From the NCBI RefSeq assembly GCF_024345855.1, contig NZ_JAGQBX010000019.1, forward strand, positions 1 to 43,394: a DNA stretch of 43,394 bases, written 5' to 3'. Under the pieces are notes generated by a model. The model was not told the origin of the DNA. It saw only the letters and a program-made list of their open reading frames with translations, and did no database searches. The number at the start of each line of letters is the position of its first letter. Within the stretch, counting starts at the first letter, position 1. This document shows positions 25,400-43,394 of this stretch, one piece after another. The DNA is from Synechococcus sp. GreenBA-s (GTDB taxonomy: Bacteria; Cyanobacteriota; Cyanobacteriia; PCC-6307; Cyanobiaceae). A program made the position numbers and the translations under genes.

Positions 25400-25475
25400 T
25401 CCCCGGCGATGGGCTGACGTCGACTGCTCAACTGTGCCGGCCGTCGTCATCGACGCGATGGCGCGATTGCCTGCT

Positions 25476-25505
25476 TTGAAGTGCTGGGGGAGGCTGGCTT
25501 ATGCT
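25476..25505 (+). promoter_or_regulatory. Internal sigma-70-type promoter
   Basis: TTGAAG (25476-25481) and TATGCT (25500-25505) are separated by 18 bases, in an AT-richer part of the 127-bp gap between the tandem glycosyltransferase genes. A start near 25512 would leave a short leader before the ATG at 25527. It is the best-matched promoter in the window and would allow the second half of the run to be expressed separately. Confidence 0.5.
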
Positions 25506-25526
25506 CATTCCAGCATCGTGGAAAAC

Positions 25527-26537: not shown

Positions 26538-27646
26538 AGAGCTGGATTGGTCATCAGCTGCGCTGGGCGGTGATGCCCCTGGCGCGATTCATGACCCGCC
26601 CCTATGCCCAGGACGTTGAACTGCTCCAGGCTTACGCCGGCCTGGTGCGTCAGGCCTATCACGCTGGCATCTTTCAGCCCTTGCTGAGCACCGATGTGTT
26701 CTGGAAAGGTTTCTGGCGCTCGCCTGACGATCTGCCGCCCACCAAATCACCGGCACGGCGGGAACGTGACAATGCCGTGCATCACTATGGCCATGATGTG
26801 CTGCTGAAGCGGCATGCGGGTCTGCCCCTGGTGGGGCGGCCCCTGCCGTTCCTGCTGGAGCACGGGGTCAATTTCAGTGACCAATCGGCCTTTGAAGTGC
26901 CGGAGCCCTGGGTGCGTACTTACCTGTGCATGGGGGAGCGTCGGGCTGCTCTGTTGCGCCAGAAGCATCCTGTCCAGGCCCATGCCATTGGTCCCTATAT
27001 CCGTTATGCTCAAATCCCCGTGAATCCAGGGCGGCTCGCTGAGCTGAAGCAGCGATTGGGGAAGACGCTGCTCGTCGTACCGCCCCATTCCACCGCGCAG
27101 GTGCAACGGATGTGGTCGAACGCGGAGTGGATCCAGCTGGTGGAGCGCTATCGCCGCGCCCATGGTTATCAGCGTGTCCTTTGGATGGGCTTCTGGAAGG
27201 ATCCCCTGCCCTTTGCTGAGTGGCTCCCCGACTGGATCCCCGCCGGCAATGGCCACGCCTCCAATCCCTGGTTCCTGGATTGTCAGCGGCTGTTGTTCGC
27301 TTTGGGCGATGCCGTCTGCACCTTTGCGCTGGGAACCCATGTCGGCTATGCCCTGGAGCTCGGCCTACCAGTTCTGTTCGGTCGGCAGGCCCTTGATCAG
27401 GACATGAGCCGGACCGATGCCGTCTGGCGACCGCGTTTCCAGGGAGAGCTGGAGGAGCGGGAACGGTTGATTGACCGGCTGCTGCGCGACGCGGACGGCG
27501 ACGAGCTCCTGTGCCTGGATCGCAGCCGTGCCCTGGAGCTCCTGGATCCGTGGTTCGGCTTTTCCCGCCAGGTGTCCAGTGCGGCGATGGCGGCGGTGCT
27601 TCAGGGGCGCGATGCCGAGGCGTCGCGGCGACCGCTCCGTGGCTGA
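26510..27646 (+). CDS. Uncharacterised protein, possible GT-B glycosyltransferase (378 aa)
   Basis: I do not recognise the family with confidence. After a basic start (MGSLPLRRLKSWIGHQLRW), residues about 80-150 read VHHYGHDVLLKRHAGLPLVGRPLPFLLEHGVNFSDQ; then AHAIGPYIRYAQIPVNPGRL and KTLLVVPPHSTAQVQRMWSNAEWIQLVERYRRAHGYQRVLWMGFWKDPLPFAEW look like the interdomain region of GT-B enzymes (linker, beta strand, P-HS motif, helix). Later FALGTHVGYALELGLPVLFGRQ resembles a donor-binding helix. The first 28 bases overlap the preceding gene. Composition is AT-richer than average. A glycosyltransferase or sugar-phosphate transferase for a capsule-type glycan is the best inference, from context and layout. 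Confidence 0.75.
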   Translation: MGSLPLRRLKSWIGHQLRWAVMPLARFMTRPYAQDVELLQAYAGLVRQAYHAGIFQPLLSTDVFWKGFWRSPDDLPPTKSPARRERDNAVHHYGHDVLLKRHAGLPLVGRPLPFLLEHGVNFSDQSAFEVPEPWVRTYLCMGERRAALLRQKHPVQAHAIGPYIRYAQIPVNPGRLAELKQRLGKTLLVVPPHSTAQVQRMWSNAEWIQLVERYRRAHGYQRVLWMGFWKDPLPFAEWLPDWIPAGNGHASNPWFLDCQRLLFALGDAVCTFALGTHVGYALELGLPVLFGRQALDQDMSRTDAVWRPRFQGELEERERLIDRLLRDADGDELLCLDRSRALELLDPWFGFSRQVSSAAMAAVLQGRDAEASRRPLRG

Positions 27647-28484
27647 GGCCCGCGGCCGGCCACTCTGGCTGCGGTTCCGCTCCCGCCGCAGTGTGCTGGC
27701 CCTGGAGGAAGAGGCCCGCGCGGCCCTGGCCCATGGCGATGTCGCCGTTGCCCTGGTGGCCCTCGAGACCCTGGCCAGGCGCTACCGCTGGCATGCCCCG
27801 GTGGAGGCGTTGCTGTTCCGCCGTGCGGCCCGGCCCGCAGGCGGGGCACAGGCGGAGGCCTTGCTACGGGGAATCGCAGCCTGCGCCGGGTTCCGCCGCC
27901 ACCACCGCGCCTATGCCGCCGTGAGCCTGGTCTACCGAGCTGCCGCCAGCGGCGACTGCTCCCTGGCCCGGGAGCTGCAGGTGGGCCTTGAGGCGGCGGT
28001 GGCTGAGCTGGAGGCGGATCCGGCCACGCTGCACTGCGGCCGCCGCAACCGCGAGAACCGCCTCAAGCGGCTAATATCCAGTCGGGCGGCCCTGCTGCAC
28101 CTGGCCCTGCTGCAGCACGATCAGCAGGCGCTGGCGGCCATCGGCCCCTGGGCCCACGCCCTGCTGGCCCGCCTCGACTTCGACCGCCTGCCGGCGGATG
28201 TGAGCCTGCGGCTGATGAGCAACTTCGGCCGCTGCCTGGCCCTGCAGGCCCCCTTGGCCCCCCAGGCCCTGCGACTCGATCTGGAGCGCCTGGTGGCCGA
28301 GGCAGCCCGGCCACGGCATCGCCACAGCCGGGCCCCGGAGGATCACCTCGGCTTTCTGCGGGGGCTGCTGGCGGATTTGGGCACTGGCGCACCGCTGCTG
28401 GCGATTCTCAACGTCGACACGCCGGAGCTGCGGGCGGGCCTCGGGGCCTTCTGGCAGGCTGCCGCCCAGGGGCGCGGGGCCTGA
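27612..28484 (+). CDS. Unknown helical protein in glycan operon (290 aa)
   Basis: Unrecognised protein, about 290 residues from the ATG at 27612, which overlaps the preceding gene by 35 bases; an internal GTG (VAEARG) is an alternative start. It is almost wholly alpha-helical and Arg/Ala/Leu-rich. Repeating helix pairs such as VLALEEEARAALAHGDVAVALVALETLARRYRW and ALLHLALLQHDQQALAAIGPWAHALLARLDFDRLP suggest TPR-like or related solenoid repeats. There is no signal peptide or membrane segment. It sits between the unassigned GT-B-like gene and two GT4 enzymes, so a scaffold or regulator of glycan assembly is possible. Confidence 0.72.
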   Translation: MPRRRGDRSVAEARGRPLWLRFRSRRSVLALEEEARAALAHGDVAVALVALETLARRYRWHAPVEALLFRRAARPAGGAQAEALLRGIAACAGFRRHHRAYAAVSLVYRAAASGDCSLARELQVGLEAAVAELEADPATLHCGRRNRENRLKRLISSRAALLHLALLQHDQQALAAIGPWAHALLARLDFDRLPADVSLRLMSNFGRCLALQAPLAPQALRLDLERLVAEAARPRHRHSRAPEDHLGFLRGLLADLGTGAPLLAILNVDTPELRAGLGAFWQAAAQGRGA

Positions 28485-28489
28485 CTGCC

Positions 28490-29647
28490 ATGGCCAGGGT
28501 GCTGATCGCGATCCATGCGCTGCGCACCGGCGGCGCCGAGCGCGTGGCCCTGCAGTTCGCCCGCTGGCTGCTGGAGGCGGGCCATGGGGTGGTGCTGCTC
28601 ACCCCCGCCCGGGTCGGCGCCGACTTCTACCCCCTGCCCGCCGGCCTGGAGCGCCGCCACGAGCCGCCCCTGCCCGGGCGACTGGACTGGCTGGGCCCCC
28701 TGGTGTTTCCGCTGCGGGTGTGGCGGCTGCGCCGGCTGCTCCAGGCCGAGCACTTCGATCTGACCCTCGGCATGACCACCCTGCCGGCGGTGAAGCTTCT
28801 GCTGGCTGCCTGGGGTCTCGGCCTGCCGGTGGTGGTGGCGGAGCGGATCTTCCCCGGCGCCACCCCCCTGGCCCTGCCCTGGCGCTGGCTGCGGCGGCTC
28901 ACCTATCCGCGGGCGGCCCTGCACCTGGTGCAGACCGAGGCGATCGCCGCCTGGCTGCGGCAGCGGCGGCTGGCGCACCGTACCGCCGTGCTGGCCAATG
29001 CCATCCCCTGGCCCCTGCCCGAGCACCCGCCGCGGGTCGACCCCGACGGCCTGTTGGAACCCAGGGAGCGGCTGGTGTTGGCCGTGGGCACCAAGCCCCA
29101 CCAGAAGGGCTTTGACCTGCTGGTGCCGGCCTTCGCCGCGGTGGCCGCACGGCGGCCGGGCTGGCGGCTGGCGATCGCGGGGCTGCCCCCGGAGGCCTGG
29201 CCCGCCGGCTGGCCCGCTCTGCCGGCCGGTGCGGCGCGGCCGCTGCTGCCGGGACGGGTCGGCAATCTGGCGGAGTGGTACGCCCGCGCCGACCTGTTTG
29301 TGCTCAGCTCCCGCTTCGAGGGCATCCCTAACGTGCTGCTTGAGGCGATGGCCAGCGGCTGCCCCTGCCTGGCGATCGACTGCCCCACCGGCCCCGCCGA
29401 GCTGATCGCCCACGGCCAGAACGGCTTGTTGCTCCCGGCCGGCTCGGGGGTCTCTGAGCTGATGGCGGCTCTGGAGGCGTTGATCGATGCCCCCGAGCGG
29501 CGGCGGCGGCTCGGCCACGGGGCCCTGGCCGTGCGGCAGCGCTTCGCCGAAGCCACGATCCGCAGCCAGTTCCTGGCCGCCCTCGCCCCCTGGCTCCAGC
29601 CCGTGTCCCCGTCCGCGGCCGCCTCGCCCTCCGCCACCACGCCATGA
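28490..29647 (+). CDS. Glycosyltransferase, GT4 family
   Basis: A 385-residue GT-B enzyme. The start RVLIAIHALRTGGAERVALQFARWLLEAGHGVVLLTP is the classic GT4 acceptor loop (GGAERV). RLVLAVGTKPHQKGFDLLVPAFAAV marks the start of the donor domain with the K-G-x-D phosphate contact, and LSSRFEGIPNVLLEAMASGCPCLAIDCPTGPAEL holds the E-x7-E motif. This pattern is nearest to GalNAc/Gal transferases such as PglH/WbpX-like and RfaG-type members. The start lies five bases past the preceding stop, and its own stop overlaps the next start as ATGA. Substrates unknown. Confidence 0.92.
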   Translation: MARVLIAIHALRTGGAERVALQFARWLLEAGHGVVLLTPARVGADFYPLPAGLERRHEPPLPGRLDWLGPLVFPLRVWRLRRLLQAEHFDLTLGMTTLPAVKLLLAAWGLGLPVVVAERIFPGATPLALPWRWLRRLTYPRAALHLVQTEAIAAWLRQRRLAHRTAVLANAIPWPLPEHPPRVDPDGLLEPRERLVLAVGTKPHQKGFDLLVPAFAAVAARRPGWRLAIAGLPPEAWPAGWPALPAGAARPLLPGRVGNLAEWYARADLFVLSSRFEGIPNVLLEAMASGCPCLAIDCPTGPAELIAHGQNGLLLPAGSGVSELMAALEALIDAPERRRRLGHGALAVRQRFAEATIRSQFLAALAPWLQPVSPSAAASPSATTP

Positions 29648-30807
29648 CCCGCTCCGATCTGCGGCTGCGCCTGCTGGCGTTCGTGCCCTCGGCCCAGGCC
29701 CCCTCGGAAACTTTCATCCGGGCGAATCTGCGGGGCCTCCCCTTCGACACCATCGCCTATTTCGGCGATGACCTCTCCTGGAAGCAGCCCTGGCAGGGCG
29801 CCTATGCCACCTCGGTGCTGCTCAGCAAGGCGCTCTACAGGCTCGGCCTGCGGCGTGCCGGCACCCTGCCGCCCTCGCTGGTGGCCTGGGCCCTTTGTCG
29901 CCGCCACCGGCCCGATGCCCTGATCGCCGAATTCGGCTTTCACGCCGTGCGGATGATGGAGGCGGCCGCCTGGAGCGGCATCCCCCTGGTGGTGCAGTTT
30001 CACGGCTCCGATGCCTCGGCCCGCAGCCGCCTGGTGCCGCTTCGGGAGCGCTACCGGCGCCTGCTGAGTCTCGCGGCGGGGGTGGTGGCCAAGTCGGAAC
30101 CGATGCGGCGCACGTTGCTGGAGCTGGGGGCCCCCGCCGAGCGCCTGGTGGTGAGTCCCTGCGGCGCCGATGCCGGACTGTTCCATGGGTCCACGCCGGG
30201 CCAGGCCCCGCCCACCTTTCTGGCGGTGGGGCGGTTTGTGGCCAAGAAGGGTCCCCTGCTCACGATCCAGGCTTTCGCCGCCGCGCTGGAGCAGCTCCCC
30301 CCTGGCCAGGCCGCTGGGTTGCGGCTGGTGATGGTGGGTGATGGCCCGCTGCTCCCGGCGGCGGGCCAGTTGGTCAATGACCTGGGCTTGCAGGAGCAGG
30401 TGCAGTTCCCCGGTCTGTGCAGCCCCGCCGGGGTGGCGGATCGGATGCGCGCCTGTCGCGCCTTCCTGCAGCACTCCCTGGTGGCTCCCGATGGCGACAG
30501 CGAGGGCTCACCGGTGTCGGTGATGGAGGCCCAGCTGAGCGGTCTGCCGGTGATCTCCACCCGCCATGCCGGCATCCCCGAGGTGGTGCTGGAGGGTGAA
30601 ACGGGTCTGCTGGTCGACGAGGGCGATGTGGCCGGCATGGCGTTGGCCATTGCCAGGCTGGCGGCCGATTCGGCCCTGGCCGAGCGGCTGGGGCGGGCGG
30701 CGGCGCTGCGGGCCGGATCGGCCTTCACCGTGGCCCACCACCTGGAGGCGGTGGCGGGCCTGGTCGAGCGGGTGGTGGCGGAGCGCAGGCCGACTCCTCA
30801 GGATTGA
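29644..30807 (+). CDS. Glycosyltransferase, GT4 family, WcaL-like
   Basis: A 387-residue GT-B enzyme resembling colanic-acid/amylovoran transferases. N-terminal features are RLRLLAFVPSAQAPSETFIRANLRGLPFDTIAYFGDD and YRRLLSLAAGVVAKSEPMRRTLLELGAPAERLVVSPCGAD. The donor half has FLAVGRFVAKKGPLLTIQAFAAAL, VMVGDGPLLPAAGQLV and LVAPDGDSEGSPVSVMEAQLSGLPVISTRHAGIPEVV, the usual E-x7-E region. It is coupled to the previous gene (ATGA). Its last ten bases overlap the convergent acyltransferase gene. It is the final plus-strand gene of the glycan run. Confidence 0.93.
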   Translation: MTRSDLRLRLLAFVPSAQAPSETFIRANLRGLPFDTIAYFGDDLSWKQPWQGAYATSVLLSKALYRLGLRRAGTLPPSLVAWALCRRHRPDALIAEFGFHAVRMMEAAAWSGIPLVVQFHGSDASARSRLVPLRERYRRLLSLAAGVVAKSEPMRRTLLELGAPAERLVVSPCGADAGLFHGSTPGQAPPTFLAVGRFVAKKGPLLTIQAFAAALEQLPPGQAAGLRLVMVGDGPLLPAAGQLVNDLGLQEQVQFPGLCSPAGVADRMRACRAFLQHSLVAPDGDSEGSPVSVMEAQLSGLPVISTRHAGIPEVVLEGETGLLVDEGDVAGMALAIARLAADSALAERLGRAAALRAGSAFTVAHHLEAVAGLVERVVAERRPTPQD

Positions 30808-32864
30808 CGATCGAGCGCCAGCAGCCCGTGGCTGTTCAGGAAGTCTCGGAAATCACCATAGAGAAGCGCGCCACCTTGGTTGTTGAGGTGGTCGTCGTCG
30901 AAGAAGATACGGTGCCCCTCGCGATAGTTTCGGCACGTGGGCCCCTCGGGACAGAGCACCGGGAAGGGGTCGTAGAGCAGCAGATTGGGATGGCTTCGGG
31001 AAGCGGCCTCGAGTCTGTCGGTCAGCACGCGGAACCGTCGGCTCAGTTGCTCCCGGTCTGCCTGGAGTTCACAGCCTGGATCGAGCAGTGGACGAAACCA
31101 CTCCCGCACGCACAGTTCCGGTGGTGGGAGGTCGCGCCCGCGCGCGAACTTGGGTATCGGCAGCACCACCACGACGGGGACCTTCTTCAGGGCTGCCCGC
31201 TGGGCCAGAGCCTCCAAGTCTCCCAGCCAAAGGGCATAGGCCTGGTCGCGTGTCAGGGGTTGGCCTCGCTCATCGGCAAAACGATTGCGACGATCGATAC
31301 CGAAAACACTGGGCAGGAAATTAGAGACAACGAGAACATCTCCAGGCTGGAGCTCAGCCATTGTCCGTTTGATCACTCGGGCCTGCTGATCCTTGTCAAG
31401 GGCCTTCCAGGCACGTGTTTCCAGTTCTGGGCTGAGGGGCACGAGCTGTCCGTGGACGTAGAGGAGTCGCAGGCCGATCCCGTCCTCGCGGTGCAGCCGC
31501 TCCAGCAGTCCGGTGAGGTGACCGGCATGGCTGTCACCGAGCACCAGCAGCCTTGGCTGGCCTGCCCTCGCCGGCAGGGTGCACAGGCGGCTGCTCCGGG
31601 CCAGGGGCGGTCCCTCACCCCGGTACCAGCTGCAGTTGGCCTTCGTCACTGTTGTGGTGGCAATGGTGCTGCGTTCCACTTCCTGGCGAGTGGCGGCGGC
31701 CGGCCTGCCGCGAAAGGCCGCCGCTAGGGCAGTTCGTTCAAACCCCAGCAACGTCAGGGCGGTCAGGCAGGCGGCGCTCAGGCCGACCCTGAGCGTGGCG
31801 GCTCTGCTGCTGGGCCAGCTGGCCTGACGAGCCGGCGTCTCGATCCAGCGGTAGGACAGCCAGCCCAGCAGCAGCATCAGGCTCAGTTGCCCAGGTGCTG
31901 TCCACGGATGGATGCCGATGGTCCAACGGCTCAGGACCAGGACGCTCCAGTGCCAGAGGTAGAGCGAGTAGGAGAGGCCGCCGAGCCACAGGACGACCGG
32001 CCTGGTGAGCAGGTCGTGGACTGCGCTATCGGGTCGCAGCGCTACTAGCAGGAACCAGGTCAGGGCAGCCACCGCCAGCGTGGCGGTGGTGATCCAGGCC
32101 TTCACAACAAACAAGAGAGCGATCAGGGGCAGTGCAAACCAGAAGGGGTTGACCTGCTGGAGAAGCCCATGCAAGTGCCCTCGCCGCTGCACGGCGAGGA
32201 AGGCCAGGCAGCCCAGACCCAATTCCCAAAACCGCGCCGGCATCAGAAAGAACGCTCCAGCCGCATCGCGATCCGCCAAAACCAGGTAGAGCACCAGCGA
32301 ACCGAGACCAAGTCCACCGATGGCCAGGGCCAGGCGTCTGGCACCGTGAACCAGGCCCTGGGCAAAGCCCGTGAGCCAGAGAAGGAGGGGAAAGAAGAAG
32401 TAGAATTGCTCCTCGACCCCCAGAGACCATGTCTGGGTGAAAAGGTTGTAGTCAGAGGATTCGGCGAAGTAGTCGGTTGCTGTGTGGTGGAGATAGAGAT
32501 TGGAGAGGCCGAAGATGGCGCTCATCCCTGTCCGCCAACTGGTGCCACCGGCGGGTGCATAGGGCGGGATCACCAGGCTTCCCATCAGGACTGTGACGGC
32601 AATGCAGACCAGCAACGCCGGCAGCAGGCGCTTCATCCGCCTGGCGTAGAAGCTCGTCAGCCAGTCGCGCCAAGTGGTCGCGGGTCGTCGGGAGAGGGAG
32701 CTGGTGATCACATAGCCCGAGATCAGAAAGAAGACATCGACGCCCAGGAAGCCATTCGGTGCCAGGCTTTTGTTGACGTGATTGGCGATGACGGCCAGAA
32801 CGGCGATGGCCCGCAGCCCGTCAATGTCATGGCGATAACTGGAGCTCGCCGAACCCTTGGACAC
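30798..32864 (-). CDS. AT3-SGNH acyltransferase (OafA-type)
   Basis: A 688-residue membrane enzyme that acylates cell-surface sugars. The N-terminal acyltransferase-3 domain (about 1-370) has ten or more hydrophobic helices with YRHDIDGLRAIAVLAVIANHVN (essential-type His29), GFLGVDVFFLISGYVI, FYARRMKRLLPAL and QTWSLGVEEQFYFFFPLLL. The periplasmic C-terminal SGNH domain has PRLLVLGDSHAGHL (block I serine) and FFDDDHLNNQGGALL (Asp/His pair). The start is GTG with AGGAG six bases before it. GC content is lower than the neighbours. Facing the glycosyltransferase run head-on, it probably O-acetylates the glycan made there. Confidence 0.94.
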   Translation of the reverse strand: MSKGSASSSYRHDIDGLRAIAVLAVIANHVNKSLAPNGFLGVDVFFLISGYVITSSLSRRPATTWRDWLTSFYARRMKRLLPALLVCIAVTVLMGSLVIPPYAPAGGTSWRTGMSAIFGLSNLYLHHTATDYFAESSDYNLFTQTWSLGVEEQFYFFFPLLLWLTGFAQGLVHGARRLALAIGGLGLGSLVLYLVLADRDAAGAFFLMPARFWELGLGCLAFLAVQRRGHLHGLLQQVNPFWFALPLIALLFVVKAWITTATLAVAALTWFLLVALRPDSAVHDLLTRPVVLWLGGLSYSLYLWHWSVLVLSRWTIGIHPWTAPGQLSLMLLLGWLSYRWIETPARQASWPSSRAATLRVGLSAACLTALTLLGFERTALAAAFRGRPAAATRQEVERSTIATTTVTKANCSWYRGEGPPLARSSRLCTLPARAGQPRLLVLGDSHAGHLTGLLERLHREDGIGLRLLYVHGQLVPLSPELETRAWKALDKDQQARVIKRTMAELQPGDVLVVSNFLPSVFGIDRRNRFADERGQPLTRDQAYALWLGDLEALAQRAALKKVPVVVVLPIPKFARGRDLPPPELCVREWFRPLLDPGCELQADREQLSRRFRVLTDRLEAASRSHPNLLLYDPFPVLCPEGPTCRNYREGHRIFFDDDHLNNQGGALLYGDFRDFLNSHGLLALDRQS

Positions 32865-35423: not shown

Positions 35424-36290
35424 GTGGCGCCCCGCAAGCTGTTGTTGATCCGTGGCCTTGGCCACAGCGGCACCACAATTCTCGATCTGGCCCTGGGAGC
35501 CCATCCCCGCATCGTGGGGCTGGGAGAGGCTGCCCGCATCCTGCGCAGGCCGCTGCCGGGTGAGGAGCACCGAGGTCCTGCCCAGCTGAGGGCTGAACTC
35601 AGGCATCAACGGGTCTGCACCTGTGGTGCGACGGCAGCCCAGTGTCCCGTATGGGGGGATCTGCTGGAGTGGCTACCCGCCCATGATCATCTGCCATTGG
35701 CCGATAAGTTTCGGCGCCTGATGGAGGCGGTGAGCTTGGCAGGGGTGCAGGCTGGTCATGCTGATGACTGGCTGGTTGATTCCTATCAGGACGATCTCGA
35801 GCTTCCCTCCCAGTCTTTTGCGGATCTGGATGTGAGGGTGGTGTTCCTGGTTCGTGATGTGCGCTCGTGGGTGTATTCAAGAGTCCGGGATCGCCGCAAC
35901 AAGGGGAAATCCCTTCTGGGTGTCCGCAATGTGGCCCGCTGGTGCCGCGTCAATCGCCGTTTTGAACGGGAGCTTCAACGCTGTGGCAAGCCGGTTTTCC
36001 ACTTGGGCTACGAAGAGCTGGCCCTGGCGCCGGACCGGGCGCTTGGCCGGCTGTGTGAGTGGTTGGGCCTCGAGTTCTCGGAGGCCATGCTCACGCCTGG
36101 ATTGGCATCAGGCAGCCACATTCTCTCTGGAAACAGGGTGCGCTTTGATCCTCAGAAAACCCGGCAGATCCGCTACGACGCCTCCTGGCTTCAGGCTACG
36201 GCGTGGCCGGCCTCGGCCGCGCTGATCTGGCCTCAGCTCGCGCAGATGAATCACCGCCTGGTTTATGCCAACGAATGGATAGGTGGCTGA
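35424..36290 (+). CDS. Sulfotransferase (PAPS-dependent)
   Basis: A 288-residue protein of the P-loop sulfotransferase family, moving sulfate from PAPS to a hydroxyl of a sugar or small molecule. The 5'-phosphosulfate loop is LIRGLGHSGTTILDLALGAHP (8-28). CTCGATAAQCPVW (65-77) matches the C-x-CG...CP-W segment of related bacterial enzymes. The 3'-phosphate site is VVFLVRDVRSWVYSRVRDRRNKG (139-161), and HLGYEELALAPDRALGRLCEWLGLEF is the usual conserved helix. The start is GTG four bases after the helicase stop. GC content is clearly lower than in the helicase gene, suggesting later acquisition. A role in sulfating a surface polysaccharide fits the region. Confidence 0.87.
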   Translation: MAPRKLLLIRGLGHSGTTILDLALGAHPRIVGLGEAARILRRPLPGEEHRGPAQLRAELRHQRVCTCGATAAQCPVWGDLLEWLPAHDHLPLADKFRRLMEAVSLAGVQAGHADDWLVDSYQDDLELPSQSFADLDVRVVFLVRDVRSWVYSRVRDRRNKGKSLLGVRNVARWCRVNRRFERELQRCGKPVFHLGYEELALAPDRALGRLCEWLGLEFSEAMLTPGLASGSHILSGNRVRFDPQKTRQIRYDASWLQATAWPASAALIWPQLAQMNHRLVYANEWIGG

Positions 36291-36589: not shown

Positions 36590-37399
36590 TCAGAGGCTGC
36601 TGGGGGCCAGGCCGCCGGCCACGGCGCCACGGATGGCCAGCAGCTGCTCCAGCAGCGGTTCAAGCCGGTGCAGCGGCACCATGTTGGGCCCGTCGCTGAG
36701 GGCGTTGTCGGGGTCGGGGTGGACCTCCATGAACAGCCCATCCACCCCCACGGCCACCGCAGCCCGAGCCAGGGGTGCCACGAACTCCCGTTGGCCGCCG
36801 GTGCTGGTGCCGTTGCCGCCCGGCTGCTGCACCGAGTGGGTCGCATCGAAGATCACCGGGCAGCCCAGCTCCTGGAGCTGGGGCAGGCCGCGGTAGTCCA
36901 CCACCAGGGTGTTGTACCCGAAGCTGCTGCCCCGCTCGGTGAGCCAGAGGTTCTCCACGCCGGCCTCCCGCAGTTTCTTCACCACCTGGGCCATGTCCCA
37001 GGGGGCGAGGAACTGGCCCTTCTTCACGTTGATGATCTTCTCAGTGCCGCGGGTGGCGGCGGCGGCGGCCAGCAGCAGGTCGGTTTGGCGGCAGAGGAAG
37101 GCGGGGATCTGCAGCACGTCCACCACCTCGGCCACCGGGGCCGCCTGGTGACTCTCGTGGATGTCGGTGAGCACCGGCAGCCCGAAACGCTGCTTCACCT
37201 CGGCCAGCACCTCCAGGCCGCCGCTGACGCCGGGGCCGCGGAACGAGCCGCCCGAGCTGCGGTTGGCCTTGTCGTAGCTGGCCTTGAAGATGTAGCGGAT
37301 GCCCAGCCGGTCGGTGATGGCCTTCACCTGCTCGGCGATCTCCAGGGCGAGCTCCCGGCTCTCGATCACGCAGGGACCGGCGATCAGCGTGAGGCTCAT
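36590..37399 (-). CDS. kdsA: 3-deoxy-D-manno-octulosonate 8-phosphate synthase
   Basis: Condenses phosphoenolpyruvate with arabinose-5-phosphate to KDO-8-phosphate. The 269 residues show IAGPCVIES (6-14), [87 protein letters not shown] and [20 protein letters not shown]. Cys10 stands where the E. coli enzyme has Asn, and the His (DATHS), Glu (FMEVH) and Asp (SDGPN) ligands are kept, so this is the metal-dependent class, as in Aquifex. It is divergent from the HIT gene and transcribed away from the kdsB cluster; kdsC and kdsD lie 4-6 kb away. Confidence 0.97.
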
Positions 37400-37444
37400 G
37401 GGCAGGGGGGCGCGGCGGTTGCGGCAGTCCGGGCTGGGGCCAGC

Positions 37445-37478
37445 ATGCCGGAAGCTGCAGCAGCGAGCTTGCCGGCAT
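37445..37478. promoter_or_regulatory. 12-bp bulged hairpin in a divergent intergenic region
   Basis: ATGCCGG-AAGCT (37445-37456) pairs with AGCTT-g-CCGGCAT (37466-37478) around a 9-base loop; one G is bulged. It lies 45 bases from the kdsA start and 70 from the HIT gene start, in a gap where nothing should terminate. It may be a 5' leader structure, an operator or a small repeat. Confidence 0.45.
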
Positions 37479-37548
37479 CGCGCCGGTTCCGCCGGCTGCC
37501 CTCAGCCTGGTGCCACGCCAACCCCACCACCAACCCCCACCCTCGCCG

Positions 37549-38058
37549 ATGCCTGAGGCCTCGCCCCAGCCCAGCGCCATTCCCCCTGGTGCCTGCGGCG
37601 TCTGCGGCCTGCACGCCGATCCCGAAGCCCGGGACCGCTGGCAGATCGGCGCTGACGGCCTCTGGCTGCTACGGCACCACCCCGATCCGGCACCCGTGGC
37701 CGGCTGGCTGATCCTCGATGCCGTGCGGCACCTGGGCGGGCCGATCGACTTCCGGCTCCAGGAGGCCGCTGCCTGGGGTGGGGCGGTGCAGCGGGCCTCG
37801 CGGCTCGTTCAGGCGCTCACGGGTTGTGAGCGCGTCTATGCGATCGCCTTCGGGGAGGGGGCGCGGCACCTGCATCTGCACCTGATCCCCCGCCGGGAGG
37901 GGGACAGCGGGACCGAGGCCTGGGCGGTGGCCGACGTCTACCGGGCGGTGGCCAGCGGGAGCCGGCCGGCCGCCGATCCCGCTGCCGTGGCCGAGCTGGT
38001 GGCCCGGGCCCGGACGCTCTGGGGCGCCGCCGGCGACGGCCCTACGCTCGCGCCATGA
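37549..38058 (+). CDS. HIT-family protein (nucleotide hydrolase/transferase)
   Basis: A 169-residue HIT-fold protein. CGVCGLHADPEARDRWQIGADGLWLLRHHPDPAPVAGWLILDAVRH is the typical N-terminal part (a short Cys motif, then P-AGWL), and FGEGARHLHLHLIPR holds the His-x-His-x-His triad (107, 109, 111). Relatives hydrolyse diadenosine polyphosphates or AMP-linked compounds. The ATG at 37549 is chosen; an in-frame ATG at 37510 adds only a Pro/His-rich tail. Its stop overlaps the next gene as ATGA, coupling it to a glycosyltransferase, which suggests a role in the same locus or simple operon sharing. Confidence 0.83.
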   Translation: MPEASPQPSAIPPGACGVCGLHADPEARDRWQIGADGLWLLRHHPDPAPVAGWLILDAVRHLGGPIDFRLQEAAAWGGAVQRASRLVQALTGCERVYAIAFGEGARHLHLHLIPRREGDSGTEAWAVADVYRAVASGSRPAADPAAVAELVARARTLWGAAGDGPTLAP

Positions 38059-38753
38059 GCCAGCCCATTCCGGTTTTCATCGGCTACGACCCGCGCGAGC
38101 GGGCGGCCACCAACGTGCTGATCGACAGCCTCTTTCAGCGCAGCTCGGCACCGCTGGCGATCACGCCGATCGTGACGCCCCAGCTGGAGGCCCAGGGGCT
38201 GTTCAGGCGCGAGCGCGACCCGAAGCAGAGCACCGCCTTCTCCTTCACCCGCTTCCTGGTGCCTCACCTGATGGGATATCAGGGCTGGGCGCTGTTCATG
38301 GACTGCGACATGCTCTGCCGCGGCGACATCGCCGAACTCTGGGCCCTGCGGGATGAGCAGTACGCCGTGATGTGTGTCCAGCACGAGCACAACCCCAACG
38401 AGTCGGTGAAATTTCTCGGGGAGCCCCAGAGCCCCTACCCCAAGAAGAACTGGAGCTCGCTGATGCTGCTCAACTGCAGCCGCTGCACCGCCCTCACCCC
38501 GGAGTATGTCAACACGGCGACAGGACTGGAGTTGCATCGCTTCCACTGGCTCGCCGGTGACCATGAGATCGGAGCCCTTGACCAGGGCTGGAATCACCTG
38601 GTCGACGTGCAGGACCCCGCCAAGGCCGAGGGCGCCACGCTGCTGCACTGGACCCTGGGGGGGCCCTGGTTCCGCGAGCAGCGTCTGATGGGTGGCGTAC
38701 TGGCGGCCGAGTGGTTCGCCGCCCGCGACGACAGCTCCCGTCTCTGGGACTGA
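38055..38753 (+). CDS. GT-A glycosyltransferase, copy A (232 aa)
   Basis: A compact GT-A fold enzyme resembling GT8-type transferases. The N-terminus IPVFIGYDPRERAATNVLIDSL (5-26) is the nucleotide-binding beta-alpha unit; FSFTRFLVPHLMGYQGWALFMDCDMLCRGDIAELW (63-97) contains the DxD at Asp83-Asp85. NWSSLMLLNCSRC, LTPEYVNTATGLELHRF and LLHWTLGGPWF, with a probable metal-ligand His, follow. It is coupled to the HIT gene (ATGA) and to kdsB (TGATG). A close paralogue lies just beyond kdsB. Linkage to kdsB raises the possibility that the acceptor or product contains KDO; the enzyme itself does not resemble KDO transferases of GT30 or GT99/GT107. Confidence 0.87.
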   Translation: MSQPIPVFIGYDPRERAATNVLIDSLFQRSSAPLAITPIVTPQLEAQGLFRRERDPKQSTAFSFTRFLVPHLMGYQGWALFMDCDMLCRGDIAELWALRDEQYAVMCVQHEHNPNESVKFLGEPQSPYPKKNWSSLMLLNCSRCTALTPEYVNTATGLELHRFHWLAGDHEIGALDQGWNHLVDVQDPAKAEGATLLHWTLGGPWFREQRLMGGVLAAEWFAARDDSSRLWD

Positions 38754-39532
38754 TGGCGATGCGCACGATCGTGGCCGTGCCGGCCCGGCTCGAATCCTCC
38801 CGCCTGCCCCGCAAGGTGCTGGCGGACATCGGTGGCAAGCCGATGCTGCAGCGGGTGCTGGAGGCCTGCCGCCAGGCCGAGAGTCCGGCGGCGGTGGTGC
38901 TCTGCACCGACTCCGAGGAGTTGCTGAAGGCGGCGAAGCGCTGGGGCTGCCAGGCCCTGCTCACCAGTCCGGCCTGCAGCTCCGGCAGCGATCGGCTGGC
39001 CTCGGTGGTGGAGCCCCTAGTGGCCCTCGGCGGCGGGGCAGCGGCCGAGACCCTGGTGGTGAACGTGCAGGGGGACCAGCCCTTCCTCGATCCGGCCGTG
39101 ATCGATGCGATGACGGCTGAATTTGCGCGCCGCACGCCGCTGCCGGAGGTGCTCACGCCCATCTACCGCATGGGGGCCGACAAGGTGCACAACCCCAACG
39201 TGGTCAAGACGCTGGTGTCGAGCGACGGGCGCGCCCTCTACTTCTCCCGCTCCGCCATTCCCCACGTGCGCGGTGTGGATCCGGAGCACTGGCATGCCCA
39301 TGTGCCCTTCTGGGGCCACGTGGGCATCTACGGCTACCGGGGCGATGTGCTGGCCCGCTGGCCCCAGCTGCCGGCGTCGCCCCTGGAGGACAGCGAGAAG
39401 CTGGAGCAGCTGCGGCTGCTGGAGGCGGGCATCGGCATCGGCACGTTCCCGGTGGCGGAGGAGTCGCTGTCGGTGGATACGGCCGAGCAGCTGGAGCAGG
39501 CCCGGGCGATCGCGGCTGGCCTGGAGGGCTGA
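38753..39532 (+). CDS. kdsB: CMP-KDO synthetase
   Basis: 3-deoxy-manno-octulosonate cytidylyltransferase, activating KDO with CTP to CMP-KDO. The 259 residues start MAMRTIVAVPARLESSRLPRKVLADIGGKPM, matching the PAR-x-x-S-x-RLP-x-K-x-L signature. Later motifs: LCTDSEELLKAAKRWGCQALLT, SGSDRLASVV, VNVQGDQPFLDPAVIDAM, YFSRSAIPHVR, HVGIYGYRGDVLARW and EDSEKLEQLRLLEAGIGIGT. The ATG at 38753 shares its A with the previous stop; a second ATG at 38759 is possible. It stands between two paralogous GT-A glycosyltransferase genes. Confidence 0.96.
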   Translation: MAMRTIVAVPARLESSRLPRKVLADIGGKPMLQRVLEACRQAESPAAVVLCTDSEELLKAAKRWGCQALLTSPACSSGSDRLASVVEPLVALGGGAAAETLVVNVQGDQPFLDPAVIDAMTAEFARRTPLPEVLTPIYRMGADKVHNPNVVKTLVSSDGRALYFSRSAIPHVRGVDPEHWHAHVPFWGHVGIYGYRGDVLARWPQLPASPLEDSEKLEQLRLLEAGIGIGTFPVAEESLSVDTAEQLEQARAIAAGLEG

Positions 39533-39582
39533 ACGGAGCTGACCTGACGTGAGCTGGGCAGGTTGGCTGGTGCCTAGGTCAG

Positions 39583-39598
39583 TCCCGGCATGCCGGGA
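39583..39598. repeat. Perfect 16-bp palindrome after kdsB
   Basis: TCCCGGCATGCCGGGA is exactly self-complementary, 51 bases past the kdsB stop and 130 before the next gene. As a hairpin it gives a short CCCGG stem. It may help end the kdsB transcript. An AT-richer stretch at about 39645-39680 follows, with TTGCAT and TTTGAT at a 16-base spacing as a weak promoter candidate for the second glycosyltransferase copy. Confidence 0.4.
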
Positions 39599-39727
39599 TG
39601 GACTGCCATGGCTCAGCCGGCGCCAGGCCAGCCCCGGGCGAGCCTTGCATAACGCCAGCATTGTAGTTTGATTGCAAGATCAACTCGGTTGGCGTCTCCG
39701 GCGCCTGTCTCCTCCTGCTGCGCTGCC

Positions 39728-40435
39728 ATGGCCCTGCCCATTCCGGTGTTCATCGGCTACGACCCCCACGAGCGGGCCGCCGTGAACGTGCTGATCGACA
39801 GCCTTGTCCAGCACAGCAGTCAGCCCCTGGCGATCACGCCGATCGTCGCCCGGCAGCTCCAGGGCGTGTACGGCCGTGGGCGCGATCCGCGCCAGAGCAC
39901 GGAGTTCTCCTTCAGCCGCTTCCTGGTGCCCCACCTGATGGGCTACCAGGGCTGGGCGATCTTCATGGACTGCGACATGCTGGCCCGCGGCGACATCGCC
40001 GAACTCTGGGCCCTGCGGGATGAGCGCTATGCGCTGCTGTGCGTGCAGCACGAGCACGTGCCCCGCGAGGACGTGAAGTTCCTCGGTGCCCTCCAGACCC
40101 GCTACGAGAAGAAGAACTGGAGCTCGCTGATGCTGTTCAACTGTGGGCGCTGCACGGCCCTCACGCCCGAGTACGTCAACACGGCGTCCGGCCTGCAGCT
40201 GCACCGCTTTGAGTGGCTTCAGGGCGACTATGAAATCGGCGCCCTGCCGATGGAGCGCTGGAATCACCTGATCGACGTGCAGCCCCCGCGGACGGAGCCC
40301 GCGGCTGCGGGCGGTCCGGCCCTGGTGCACTGGACCCTGGGCGGCCCCTGGTTTCAGGAGTACCGCCTGGGGGGCGGTGTACTGGCGGCCGAGTGGTTGG
40401 CAGCCAGGGACGAGGCCTTCCGGCTCTGGAACTGA
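39728..40435 (+). CDS. GT-A glycosyltransferase, copy B (235 aa)
   Basis: Close paralogue of the gene at 38055: IPVFIGYDPHERAAVNVLIDSL (5-26), FSFSRFLVPHLMGYQGWAIFMDCDMLARGDIAELWALRDERY with DxD at Asp81-Asp83, KKNWSSLMLFNCGRCTALTPEYVNTASGLQLHRFEWL and LVHWTLGGPWFQEYRLGGGVLAAEWLAARDEAFRLW. Identity is high in the middle and lower at residues 41-58 and 200-215, where acceptor choice may differ. The ATG at 39728 aligns with copy A; the frame is open upstream without similarity. Its stop lies inside a 13-bp hairpin shared with the convergent acyltransferase. Confidence 0.87.
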   Translation: MALPIPVFIGYDPHERAAVNVLIDSLVQHSSQPLAITPIVARQLQGVYGRGRDPRQSTEFSFSRFLVPHLMGYQGWAIFMDCDMLARGDIAELWALRDERYALLCVQHEHVPREDVKFLGALQTRYEKKNWSSLMLFNCGRCTALTPEYVNTASGLQLHRFEWLQGDYEIGALPMERWNHLIDVQPPRTEPAAAGGPALVHWTLGGPWFQEYRLGGGVLAAEWLAARDEAFRLWN

Positions 40436-40446
40436 GCCGGAAGGCC
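40414..40446. terminator. Perfect 13-bp hairpin between convergent genes
   Basis: Arms GGCCTTCCGGCTC (40414-40426) and GAGCCGGAAGGCC (40434-40446) pair without mismatch around the loop TGGAACT. The structure includes the last codons and stop of the plus-strand glycosyltransferase and ends two bases before the stop of the minus-strand acyltransferase. No T-run is present on either strand. It is a strong candidate for a bidirectional terminator built partly from coding sequence. Confidence 0.7.
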
Positions 40447-40448
40447 AC

Positions 40449-41495
40449 TCACCAGCCCATCGCCCGCAGGGCTCTGTCGTAGAGCCGTTGCCCCCACCAG
40501 GACAGGCCCGCGATCAGGGGTACGCCGACCACCAGCAGCACCAGCAGCAGCCACCAGGGGTGGGCTGGCTCGAGGCCGGCGGCGGCAGCCTTGAGGCCCT
40601 TCAGCAGGGGGCGATGCAGCAGGTACATGAAGAAGCTCGCGGTGCTCGTGGCCTGCAGCCAGCCCGGCAGGCTCCAGCCGCGCAGTCGGCGGCAGGTGAC
40701 GACCACCAGCAGAGCGGGGACCAGGGCGGCCATCGGCAGCGAGCGGAGGCTGGTCTCGATGGCACGGCCCTGGACGCCAAGGCTGATGGTCAGGGCGACA
40801 AGGGCCAGCGCCGTCAGGAGGGCCAGGCCTCTGGAGTGCAGGGGGCCCCGCGCATCGGCGTGGCCCAGCAGCTCGCCTGAGAGCAGCAGCCCTACGGCGA
40901 AGGGCGGGAAGTAGAGGAGGATTCGCGGATCCAGGCCACCGAGGAGTCGATCGAGCGCGCCCAATCCCAGGGCCAGAGATCCGCAGAGCACCACCTGGGC
41001 CTGCGCTCTGCTCCCTGTCCTGACGATCAGACTGTGGCGAATGATCAGAAGCAGTGGTGCCGCTGCGTAGAACAGCACGAGCATGTTCACGTACCAAAGC
41101 GTCCGAAGTGGCTCGCCGTTGAAGGCGGGAATCAGCAGCAGCCCCTTCGCGACATCGGGCCACTTCAGGAGTTCAACCAGTCCAAAGAGCACCAGGGCCG
41201 CCCAGTAGGGCGGCACGATTCGCAGGAACCTTGCCCAGTAGTACCTCCAGATGTGGCCGCCAGTGCGGATCTCCCGTCGGCCAGCCAGGGCGCCCGCCAT
41301 CAGGGTGAACAGGCCAAGCACTACCACCGTCAGTCGGTATGTGACGGCGTTCTTGTATCCATCAATGCCGTCGACATAGCCCAGCAGATGCCAGAAGCCA
41401 ACGATGTAGAGAATGCTGCCGCCGCGCAGCAGGTCAATTGCGGCATGGCGCCGAGAGGCAGGGGTTCCTGGTGCGTGGCCGAGGGACTCAGTCAT
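40449..41495 (-). CDS. Acyltransferase-3 family membrane protein (348 aa)
   Basis: An AT3-fold membrane acyltransferase without the SGNH extension. It has about ten hydrophobic helices. Motifs: RHAAIDLLRGGSILYIVGFWHLLGY with a conserved-type His, YYWARFLRIVPPYWAALVLFG with Arg and Pro-Pro, TLWYVNMLVLFYAAAPLLL, and ASFFMYLLHRPLLKGL near the C-terminus with His-Arg-Pro. The ATG at 41495 overlaps the kdsC stop by eight bases, so it is the last gene of the rmlB-kdsD-kdsC unit. It probably acetylates a sugar of the KDO-containing or rhamnose-type glycan. Upstream codons in the longer frame are kdsC shadow. Confidence 0.88.
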   Translation of the reverse strand: MTESLGHAPGTPASRRHAAIDLLRGGSILYIVGFWHLLGYVDGIDGYKNAVTYRLTVVVLGLFTLMAGALAGRREIRTGGHIWRYYWARFLRIVPPYWAALVLFGLVELLKWPDVAKGLLLIPAFNGEPLRTLWYVNMLVLFYAAAPLLLIIRHSLIVRTGSRAQAQVVLCGSLALGLGALDRLLGGLDPRILLYFPPFAVGLLLSGELLGHADARGPLHSRGLALLTALALVALTISLGVQGRAIETSLRSLPMAALVPALLVVVTCRRLRGWSLPGWLQATSTASFFMYLLHRPLLKGLKAAAAGLEPAHPWWLLLVLLVVGVPLIAGLSWWGQRLYDRALRAMGW

Positions 41496-42078
41496 TGTGA
41501 TCGCGCCAGCCCTGGCCCTCCAGTTCGCTCCAGAAGGGGGTCGGCTGCAGCAGCCGCTCCGCCAGTTCCCGCACGGCGCCGCGCCCGCCGGGCCGCAGCA
41601 GCACCAGATCCGCCTGGCGGCGCAGGGGACGTGCCGCATCGGCCGTGGCCACCAGCAGGCCCACCTGGCCCCGCACGGCCAGGTCGTTGAAGTCGTCCCC
41701 CACGAAGGCCGTGGCGGTGGGCGTGACGCCCAGCTCGGCCTGCAGGGCCGCCAGGGCCTGGGGCTTGTCCTTGGCGCCCACCAGGCAGTGGCGGATGCCG
41801 AGGTGCCGGGCTCGTACCTCGGTGGCGCCGCCGCGGCCGCCGCTCAGAAAGGCCACCTCAATGCCGGCGTGCTGGAGCAGGCGAATCCCCAGCCCATCGC
41901 GCACATCGAAGCGCTTGATCAGTTCCCCCTGGGGGCCGTACCAAAGCCCGCCATCGGTGAGCACGCCATCCACGTCCAGCACCAGCAGGCGCACGGCCGC
42001 CAGGCGCGAGCGCTGCCGCCACCAGCGCCAACGGCGGCGCAGCTGCCATGGGCTGCCGAAGTCATGGCTCCCGCTCAT
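41488..42078 (-). CDS. kdsC: KDO-8-phosphate phosphatase (HAD family)
   Basis: Hydrolyses KDO-8-phosphate to KDO. The 196 residues belong to the HAD family C0 subclass: LLVLDVDGVLTDGGLWYGPQGELIKRFDVRDGLGIRLLQHAGIEVAFLSGGRGGATEVRARHLGI contains the nucleophile and acid Asp35/Asp37, the flap-like strands and the Ser of motif II; AKDKPQALAAL gives the Lys of motif III; FVGDDFNDLAV the acidic motif IV. An Arg/Trp-rich N-terminus (QLRRRWRWWRQRSR) precedes the domain and is unusual, possibly a membrane- or partner-binding extension. The start overlaps the kdsD stop (ATGA). Confidence 0.94.
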   Translation of the reverse strand: MSGSHDFGSPWQLRRRWRWWRQRSRLAAVRLLVLDVDGVLTDGGLWYGPQGELIKRFDVRDGLGIRLLQHAGIEVAFLSGGRGGATEVRARHLGIRHCLVGAKDKPQALAALQAELGVTPTATAFVGDDFNDLAVRGQVGLLVATADAARPLRRQADLVLLRPGGRGAVRELAERLLQPTPFWSELEGQGWRDHND

Positions 42079-43073
42079 GCCCCCGCCCTGCTGAGGCCGG
42101 CCTGCACCAGATCGTGCAGCCGGAGCAGGCCGAGCATCTGCTGGGCGCCGCCCACCACCGGCAGCACGGCGATCGGCTTGCGTCGGTTGCGCTCCATCCG
42201 CTCCAGGGCCTCCACCGCCAGCACCTGCTCGTCCACGGTGATCGGATCGGCCGTCATCAGGTCGGCGGCGGTGAGCTCGGCCCACTCCGGCGGGCTGTGC
42301 TGCTGCAGGGCCCGGCGCAGGTCGCCATCGGTGATCAGGCCGTGGATCCGGCTGGGGTCGCCGGAGTGGGTCACCCAGCCGGCCCCCACCCCATCGGCGG
42401 TGAGCTGGGCGATCACCTCGGGCAGGGGTGTGCCGGCCTGCAGCGGCGTCAGCCGGCTGGCGGGAATCATCAGGTCCCCGGCCGTGAGGGTGAGTTGCTT
42501 GCCCAGGGCGCCGGCCGGGTGGTTGAGCGCAAAGTCCTGGGGAGAGATGCCGCGCCGCTCCATCCACACCGCCGCCAGGGCATCGCCGATGGCCATGGCC
42601 ACCGCCGTGCTGGCGGTGGGGGCCAGGTTGAGCGGGCACACCTCCCGGTCCACGGAGCCATCGAGCACCACGTCGCAGCCGCGGGCCAGGGAGGAGTCGA
42701 TCCGGCCCACCAGGGCGATGCGGCGGCTGCCGCGGCGGCGCAGGTGGGGCAGGATCTCCAGCAGTTCAGCCGTCTCGCCGCTGTTGGAGAGCAGCAGCGC
42801 CACGTCGTCGGGGGCCACCACCCCGAGGTCGCCGTGCAGGGCGTCCAGAGGGTTGAGGTAGATCGCCATCAGGCCGATCGAGGAGAAGGTGGCGGCGATC
42901 TTGCGGGCCACGATGCCGCTCTTGCCCACCCCGGTGATCACCAGCTTGGCGCGGCGATCCGCGCAGCCATCGAGCAGCTCCAGGGCCGCCTCGACCTCGC
43001 TCGCCGCCAGGCGTTCCGCCGTGGCGGCAATGGCCGCCGCCTCTTCCTGCAGGCAACGGGTGAGCGCGGACAA
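42075..43073 (-). CDS. kdsD: Arabinose-5-phosphate isomerase
   Basis: Converts ribulose-5-phosphate to arabinose-5-phosphate, the KdsA substrate. It contains a SIS domain (about 30-190: KLVITGVGKSGIVARKIAATFSSIGLMAIYLNPLDALHGDLGVV, LLLSNSGETAELLEIL, LNLAPTASTAVAMAIGDALA, FALNHPAGALGK) and two CBS repeats (DLMIPASRLTPL... and DLMTADPITVDEQ...RRKPIAVLPVV). There is no ATG near the domain start; I propose TTG at 43073, giving 332 residues against 328 in E. coli. A purine-rich GGGGGAGA lies about 20 bases further up, and a GTG at 43202 would overlap rmlB, so the start is provisional. First full gene of the minus-strand KDO unit. Confidence 0.94.
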   Translation of the reverse strand: MSALTRCLQEEAAAIAATAERLAASEVEAALELLDGCADRRAKLVITGVGKSGIVARKIAATFSSIGLMAIYLNPLDALHGDLGVVAPDDVALLLSNSGETAELLEILPHLRRRGSRRIALVGRIDSSLARGCDVVLDGSVDREVCPLNLAPTASTAVAMAIGDALAAVWMERRGISPQDFALNHPAGALGKQLTLTAGDLMIPASRLTPLQAGTPLPEVIAQLTADGVGAGWVTHSGDPSRIHGLITDGDLRRALQQHSPPEWAELTAADLMTADPITVDEQVLAVEALERMERNRRKPIAVLPVVGGAQQMLGLLRLHDLVQAGLSRAGA

Positions 43074-43141
43074 GGGCCGAGGGCAGAAGGGTGCGGTGAT
43101 TCTCCCCCAGCCCTGGTGGGGTGGCGGCGGTGCCGGTGGGC

Positions 43142-43394
43142 TCAGCGGCGTGTGCCGATGCGCTCGCCGGTGTATCCCGCCCGCTCCCGAACCCCCTGGC
43201 ACCAGGTCAGGTTGGCCAGATACCAGTCCACCGTGGCCGCCAGCCCCTCCCGGACGCTGTGGCGGGGCTGCCAGCCCAGCTCCGTGCTGATGCGGCTGGG
43301 ATCGATGGCGTAGCGCCGGTCGTGGCCCGGACGATCCGTCACGGGGGTGATCAGGCGGGCGTGGGGTGCGCCAGCGGCGAGCCGCTCATCCAGC
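43142..43394 (-). CDS. rmlB: dTDP-glucose 4,6-dehydratase, C-terminal part
   Basis: The window edge cuts this gene; only the last 83 or so codons are present. The readable end, LITPVTDRPGHDRRYAIDPSRISTELGWQPRHSVREGLAATVDWYLAN, is the well-known RmlB/RfbB C-terminus (V-DRPGHDRRYAID, LGW-P, G---TV-WY--N). It is followed by a short Arg/Gly-rich tail. RmlB makes dTDP-4-keto-6-deoxyglucose, the precursor of rhamnose and other deoxysugars for surface glycans. It is followed by kdsD on the same strand about 70 bases on, so the deoxysugar and KDO pathways are probably co-expressed. Confidence 0.92.
   Translation of the reverse strand, partial: LDERLAAGAPHARLITPVTDRPGHDRRYAIDPSRISTELGWQPRHSVREGLAATVDWYLANLTWCQGVRERAGYTGERIGTRR

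Follow-up and report, generated by a model that had tools for sequence, protein, structure and literature searches.

An apparently intact CMP-Kdo pathway at the end of a GreenBA-s contig

The window analysed here is the whole of contig C11 of Synechococcus sp. GreenBA-s (43,394 bases, ending at 43394), from a genome of 2.85 Mb in 92 contigs that is 99.84% complete. At its right end lie kdsA, kdsB, kdsC and kdsD, whose products would supply cytidine monophosphate (CMP)-activated 3-deoxy-D-manno-octulosonic acid (Kdo), and two genes for GT8-fold glycosyltransferases that flank kdsB (Table 1). We propose, with evenly balanced confidence, that these genes form an inherited module that provides Kdo for some surface glycan and not for a lipid A-core built by WaaA; the GT8 enzyme would extend this glycan, and c16, encoded at 26510-27646 in the window, or an undetected enzyme would transfer Kdo.

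The original prediction placed kdsA-D within 7 kb of one another, and they are indeed found there, with all four products scoring above the cut-offs of family or subfamily models: KdsA at 406.7 bits against TIGR01362 (cut-off 314), KdsB at 187 bits against TIGR00466 (155.2) and, for the two subfamily models, KdsC at 141.2 bits against TIGR01670 (106.95) and KdsD at 240.9 bits against TIGR00393 (203.7). Narrower equivalog models were unreached by KdsB (NF003948, 196.5 of 281 bits), KdsC (NF007019, 140.4 of 208 bits) and KdsD (NF008141, 227.2 of 505 bits), as was a model for the phosphatase of 2-keto-3-deoxynononic acid (Kdn; 108.5 of 180 bits). In alignments to solved enzymes, all four proteins retain their catalytic segments. 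That of KdsA to 1fwn spans the Cys (agpCvies), His (athsvq), Glu (fmEvhp) and Asp (alsDgp) positions that bind the metal in the Aquifex enzyme, and GreenBA-s KdsA is probably of the metal-dependent type. Similarly, KdsB retains vNvQGDqPf and svDTaeqle (3duv), KdsC DvDGVLTDG and fvGDDfND (7t35), and KdsD GVGKSGI, SNSGET and NHPaGALG (5uqi), segments that presumably hold the catalytic residues. With four reading frames and their catalytic segments kept, the complete pathway looks intact, and the model scores, together with the conserved neighbourhoods in other genomes described below, exclude a chance occurrence of the set.

The glycosyltransferase, acyltransferase and rmlB genes that had also been predicted in this segment are present, with the glycosyltransferase resolving into the two GT8-fold genes and rmlB into a fragment at the contig edge, of which only the last 83 codons (43142-43393, minus strand) remain. 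The AT3 acyltransferase at 40.4 kb, inside the kds cluster, is the second of its kind in the window. Between 18.9 and 36.3 kb lie a glycosyltransferase block, an ABC (ATP-binding cassette) exporter, an AT3-SGNH acyltransferase, uvrD (a helicase gene that we assigned by reading, without a family search) and a sulfotransferase; since the segment holds glycosyltransferases, exporter, acyltransferase and sulfotransferase, the kds genes adjoin a surface-glycan locus. Directly after c16 in the glycosyltransferase block, the open reading frame at 27471-28484 gave no Pfam or NCBIfam match. Five of the neighbourhoods we fetched (L054, L056, L063, L067 and L076) have a homologue of the membrane protein c18 next to c16 and kdsA, so that c18 may act with them as a polymerase or flippase.

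Table 1. Genes of the kds cluster and of the adjoining surface-glycan locus in the GreenBA-s window.
Feature	Position	Strand	Basis
kdsA, Kdo-8-phosphate synthase	36590..37399	-	TIGR01362; alignment to 1fwn
Small HIT-like protein (HxHxH), start uncertain	37510..38058	+	HIT at E 0.3 only
GT8a, GT8-fold glycosyltransferase, DCD metal motif	38055..38753	+	PF01501 31.3 bits, cut-off 24.3
kdsB, CMP-Kdo synthetase	38759..39532	+	TIGR00466; alignment to 3duv
Second GT8 copy	39728..40435	+	PF01501 24.7 bits, cut-off 24.3
AT3 membrane acyltransferase, start approximate	40449..41495	-	PF01757 96.2 bits
kdsC, Kdo-8-phosphate phosphatase, start approximate	41488..42093	-	TIGR01670; alignment to 7t35
kdsD, arabinose-5-phosphate isomerase, SIS and CBS domains, start approximate	42075..43064	-	TIGR00393; alignment to 5uqi
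rmlB 3' end, cut by contig end	43142..43394	-	NF007582 E 1.5e-21, model's last 71 positions
c6, glycosyltransferase near kdsA	18894..19970		
c18, membrane protein without family	19970..21178	+	homologues adjoin c16 and kdsA
ABC exporter, MsbA/HepA/PglK type	21307..23187	+	TIGR02203 280.9 bits, below its cut-off 602
Glycosyltransferase block (GT4/GT2 families) surrounding c16	23193..30807	+	
c16, GT-B-fold protein, closest TagF; candidate Kdo transferase	26510..27646	+	no Pfam/NCBIfam family
AT3-SGNH acyltransferase	30798..32864	-	PF19040 96.9 bits, PF01757 71.9 bits
Sulfotransferase adjoining kdsA	35424..36290	+	PF13469 56.7 bits

A GT8-fold gene accompanies the kds genes in many genomes of the family

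The two GT8 genes of GreenBA-s encode proteins that are 77% identical to each other. A structural model of GT8a (predicted local distance difference test, pLDDT, 77.3) best matched LgtC, GlyE, WbbM, LARGE1 and UGGT (for LgtC, Z 17.9 and a root-mean-square deviation, rmsd, of 3.0 over 209 residues), and because of these matches the protein can be read as a putative uridine diphosphate (UDP)-sugar enzyme extending a Kdo-containing acceptor; comparison with the sequences of the PDB gave no meaningful match. GT8a shares its fold and DxD motif with LgtC and other GT8 enzymes, its DCD being invariant in 18 rows of the GT8 alignment, but differs from them in its close kds linkage in picocyanobacteria and in one motif. 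The usual GT8 motif, HxxGxxKPW, carries Lys before PW, and the alignment places GGPW at this site in GT8a.

The sample surveyed comprised 151 genomes of the family, GreenBA-s included. KdsA exceeded its cut-off in 60 of them; six further genomes, among 66 with a KdsA match, fell below it and were counted as lacking kdsA (G137, with a partial match of 277 bits, and five at 89-102 bits). The rarity of the Kdo pathway that the original prediction implied is not borne out by this count, nor by the modules of Synechococcus WH7803 (L122), Synechococcus RCC307 (L061) and Prochlorococcus MIT 0701 (L069), each of which groups the GT8 gene with the complete kds set; in WH 5701 (L125), the GT8 gene occurs with at least one kds gene. 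Taking 336 bits as the threshold for GT8 orthologues and lower matches as paralogues, we found an orthologue of GT8a in 50 of the 151 genomes, comprising 49 of the 60 with kdsA and one of the 91 others. In this single genome, G105 (240 contigs, 86% complete), the GT8 gene shares a 3.3-kb contig with kdsB and kdsC, so that the lack of kdsA probably reflects a gap in the assembly. Six of the 11 kdsA-positive genomes that have no GT8 gene have WaaA. The glycosyltransferase c6, used as a control, occurs in 50 genomes with kdsA and in 32 lacking it, and was on account of the latter rejected as a Kdo-specific glycosyltransferase. It adjoins a heme oxygenase gene, the pair lying at 18109-19970, and this arrangement recurs in many of the neighbourhoods we fetched.

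Linkage was examined in 78 named GT8 loci with up to 8 kb of DNA on each side, many of them shortened by contig ends. The nearest to GreenBA-s is that of Vulcanococcus limneticus, at 90% identity, among loci from which records very close to GreenBA-s may be excluded; this places GreenBA-s with the picocyanobacteria, in line with the original prediction. At least one kds gene was present in 66 of the 78 loci and all four in 35; of the 60 loci with kdsB, 39 have the GT8 gene immediately upstream of it on the same strand. Minimal modules, consisting of the four kds genes and GT8 with no other glycosyltransferase in the stretch printed, were found in G115, RCC307 (G024) and a Prochlorococcus single-cell genome, G053 (loci L044, L061 and L071). 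The gene for the HIT-like protein, which overlaps the start of GT8a in GreenBA-s, is present in 24 of the 78 loci. For kdsA itself, we examined the surroundings in 40 of the 60 positive genomes, calling the genes with our own script, which labels some kdsC wrongly as kdsB.

A second picocyanobacterial GT8 subfamily (L347-L353, L355-L357 and L361) has 52-64% identity, DAD (once DGD) as its metal motif and mostly Gln at position 162. No kds gene was found in any of the 11 paralogue loci examined.

GreenBA-s has no match to the Kdo transferase families searched

The original prediction had seen no homologue of KdtA, KpsC or KpsS near the kds genes, and searches of the whole GreenBA-s genome extend this observation, with no match to PF04413 (GT30, WaaA; controls matched in 3 of 14) or to PF05159 (KpsC/KpsS, GT107/GT99; controls matched in 2 of 14). 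PF06258, for the ELM1 family to which the Acinetobacter enzyme KdoT is assigned (PMC12856342), likewise gave none in GreenBA-s and none above cut-off in the 151 genomes, the control being matched in 1 of 14; two weak matches, of 19-21 bits, lay in other genomes. Therein the family differs from Acinetobacter, whose split Kdo assembly shows that Kdo transferases exist beyond WaaA and the Kps proteins (PMC12856342). GT38 polysialyltransferases (PF07388) were not found in GreenBA-s and exceeded the cut-off in one of the 151 genomes (controls matched in 3 of 14). GT52 sialyltransferases (PF07922) were found in none of the 151, but no control was matched either, and a search of GreenBA-s for a homologue of Escherichia coli WaaZ was negative and had no positive control. 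Thus, where the original prediction would have been contradicted by an absence of both Kdo and any Kdo transferase, the transferase half of that absence holds for GreenBA-s in the families searched (GT30, PF05159 and ELM1).

Relatives do carry such enzymes. Strong matches to PF05159 occur in 18 of the 151 genomes and strong matches to PF04413 (147-160 bits) in nine, confined to two genera, and all of these genomes have kdsA. The Kdo2-lipid A pathway with WaaA uses the same KdsD-KdsA-KdsC-KdsB supply of CMP-Kdo, and group 2/3 capsules, with their KpsS/KpsC poly-Kdo linker, share with GreenBA-s this supply, an ABC exporter and glycosyltransferases in the locus; GreenBA-s differs from both in having no match to the transferase. 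The acceptor, left open originally, is narrowed rather than solved. In the five genomes of genus g45, one contig carries both WaaA and kdsA, some 27-31 kb apart, and the loci with WaaA (GT30) include L345 and L346 (G081 and G143).

These counts leave out weak matches. PF05159 matched 21 genomes, all over its cut-off, of which three at 21-45 bits were dropped (G043, with kdsA, and G050 and G097, lacking it); PF04413 matched 15, of which six at 20-27 bits were dropped, three of them just over the cut-off and in genomes lacking kdsA. If all matches over cut-off are kept, KpsC/S occurs in 21 genomes (19 with kdsA) and WaaA in 12 (nine with kdsA). By the stricter counts, 38 genomes have kdsA and no strong match to WaaA or KpsC/S, and 35 of these carry the GT8 gene (37 and 34, respectively, with the bare Pfam cut-offs); of the 22 kdsA-positive genomes with KpsC/S or WaaA, 14 carry it. 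The kds module is ordinary in being widespread and unusual in having no assignable Kdo transferase in 38 of its 60 carriers.

c16 is a candidate Kdo transferase

Our best named candidate for Kdo transfer in GreenBA-s is c16, which was found in 15 of the 151 genomes, all with kdsA. It lies 0.8-1.7 kb from kdsA in 11 of them and 10-15 kb (to 15.2) in four, GreenBA-s among these. The protein belongs to no Pfam or NCBIfam family (a Pfam match to Phostensin, at E 0.24, can be dismissed as noise), and comparison with PDB sequences gave no meaningful match. Its AlphaFold model is GT-B-like (pLDDT 71.7; predicted template modelling score, pTM, 0.74), with TagF (Z 10.7; rmsd 4.5 over 242 residues), TarL (10.6) and the capsule multienzyme 8a0m, solved with CMP (10.3), as its best folds. 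By their structure titles, these best matches bind cytidine diphosphate (CDP)-glycerol, CDP-ribitol or CMP. The donors of TagF and TarL are CDP-alditols, from which CMP is released, and CMP would likewise be the leaving product of a transferase that uses CMP-Kdo. The CDP-alditol phosphotransferases of the TagF/TarL type are the best folds of c16 (Z 10.1-10.7 over 239-248 residues), but they are only 10-12% identical to it and c16 has no match to the Pfam families of such transferases at E up to 1. Neither KpsC nor WbbB is among the best 50 structural matches shown for c16. An invariant His-Gly in c16, H118-G119, is reminiscent of the catalytic His of TagF and may be its counterpart.

What the module may build, and the alternatives

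Our preferred reading is of a Kdo-containing surface glycan, its Kdo content and the activities of GT8 and c16 being predicted from the genes. KdsD, KdsA, KdsC and KdsB would convert ribulose-5-phosphate to CMP-Kdo, and the Kdo would be incorporated into a sulfated and/or O-acylated surface glycan instead of being placed onto lipid A via WaaA. Transfer would be carried out by an enzyme family not yet assigned in cyanobacteria, with c16 as the candidate in GreenBA-s and another enzyme necessarily acting in genomes that have no c16, and the GT8 enzyme would then add a UDP-activated sugar onto the Kdo-containing acceptor. That the picocyanobacteria have a new-family Kdo transferase, either c16 or the kds-linked GT8 using CMP-Kdo in place of WaaA and KpsC, is a further claim, and a tentative one that we lean against. 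Judged by titles, the opening of abstracts and selected passages, no open-access paper listed in our searches, outside of which most subscription journals fall, connects a GT8 gene with kds genes in picocyanobacteria.

One review describes cyanobacterial lipopolysaccharide (LPS) as free of Kdo, though it gives low values for a handful of species (PMC4515613). A 2010 survey credited cyanobacteria with no more than lpxA, C, D and B (PMC3087551), and a phylum-wide survey found the distribution of KpsC/S, KpsF and KpsU to be confined and raised other mechanisms of Kdo transfer as a possibility (PMC4594306).

Several observations weigh against our reading. The LPS of WH8102 and CC9311 is reported to have no Kdo (PMC4515613), and the GreenBA-s assembly is split into its 92 contigs. 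As regards the GT8 gene, kds genes are missing from 12 of the 78 named loci, of which five have the full 8 kb on both sides, although in two of these five, L129 (G124) and L144 (G048), kdsA lies 13-20 kb off; of four orthologue loci fetched separately, two, in G045 and G072, show no kds gene over 13 kb. The genomes are moreover related, so that the Fisher value obtained overstates independence. No kds gene was found near viral GT8 relatives in any of 80 loci, nor in any of a second set of 84 (up to 8 kb of DNA on each side, 4 kb for four phages). As regards c16, the GreenBA-s protein falls in the more loosely linked subgroup, being 48-50% identical to the three others there and 38-46% to the 11 linked ones, and its model is modest, with most of residues 1-90 at pLDDT below 50 or little better. 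UDP-N-acetylglucosamine (GlcNAc) 2-epimerases come near TagF in its fold ranking (Z 9.7), and Foldseek returned one match at E < 0.001, with a TM of 0.35. None of the 10 rows of its alignment has a conserved QXXXD or (K/R)XHP, motifs described for retaining Kdo transferases in the report on E. coli KrkA (PMC12887879). Finally, c16 is absent from 26 of the 38 kdsA-positive genomes that have no known transferase, and therefore cannot be a general Kdo transferase.

The most serious rival, which also counts against our reading, is that GreenBA-s encodes elsewhere in its genome a Kdo transferase of a described family, above all GT140. GT140 is the family of KrkA, which places Kdo in the repeat unit of the E. 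coli K13 polysaccharide and is unrelated in sequence to earlier Kdo transferases (PMC12887879). The same source reports homologues from cyanobacteria and negligible sequence similarity of GT140 to GT99 and GT107 (PMC12887879), because of which a GT140 enzyme would have been missed by the PF05159 search. The QXXXD motif of KrkA is not shown by c16. We consider such an enzyme rather unlikely, if less so than any of the alternatives that follow.

Alternatively, the GT8-fold enzyme might itself be the Kdo transferase, a GT-A enzyme with CMP-Kdo as its donor. It is the sole glycosyltransferase in the stretches printed for the three minimal modules, it occurs in nearly all of the kdsA-positive genomes that have neither WaaA nor KpsC/S (the 35 of 38 above), and it has GGPW where the usual motif has Lys. 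Nevertheless, DCD and GGPW are common to viral GT8 relatives that have no kds genes in the flanking DNA examined, and the same, diphosphate-type donor is therefore favoured for GT8; those of its structural matches that have been characterised use UDP-sugars; the gene is also found in the 14 of 22 kdsA-positive genomes with KpsC/S or WaaA; and no QXXXD or (K/R)XHP is conserved in it. A proposed Kdo marker in GT8, Arg-162, failed as well. This alternative thus seems to us improbable.

Arg-162 had been considered as a Kdo signature, or carboxylate-binding switch. It occupies 102 of 104 rows of the cyanobacterial GT8 orthologue clade (rows can repeat a genome), the exceptions, G025 and G072, both having Gln, and in the 11 paralogue loci this position is Gln in ten, Cys in one and Arg in none. 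We rejected it as a signature because 67 of the 84 viral GT8 relatives share the Arg and none of them has a kds gene in the flanking DNA examined. Profile alignment did not show its presumed equivalence to Gln-189 of LgtC. Four viral loci with kdsA and a GT8 relative, two of them identical, have His-Arg.

Kdo genes do occur in viruses. Cyanophage S-SCSM2R, whose host is WH7803, has annotated kdsA and kdsB (L102:13980-17505), followed by two family-less proteins and then a GT8 relative 38% identical to the GreenBA-s GT8. Among viral contigs with KdsA (L265-L344, the best 80 loci), kdsB is nearby in 38 and a GT8 relative in three.

Two further explanations fare worse. That the pathway is a relic, or that its product is instead a ulosonate related to Kdo, such as 8-amino-Kdo or Kdn, would accord with the scores of KdsB, KdsC and KdsD below the strictest equivalog models, but KdsA and KdsB pass the Kdo-specific equivalog models TIGR01362 and TIGR00466, the Kdn phosphatase model is unreached, and the four kds frames are intact and co-located in other genera, making it very unlikely. 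That the module serves a classical lipid A-core LPS through WaaA is the least probable of all, since the GT30 family, strongly matched as it is in nine kdsA-positive relatives, was not found in GreenBA-s and 51 of the 60 kdsA-positive genomes have no match above cut-off.

Significance

A complete Kdo supply line is thus common in picocyanobacteria, and three transferase situations, WaaA, KpsC/S and none found, coexist within one family. Phages and grazers recognise these cells by their surface glycans. For the predicted Kdo glycan of picocyanobacteria, GT8 and c16 are the genes of first interest.

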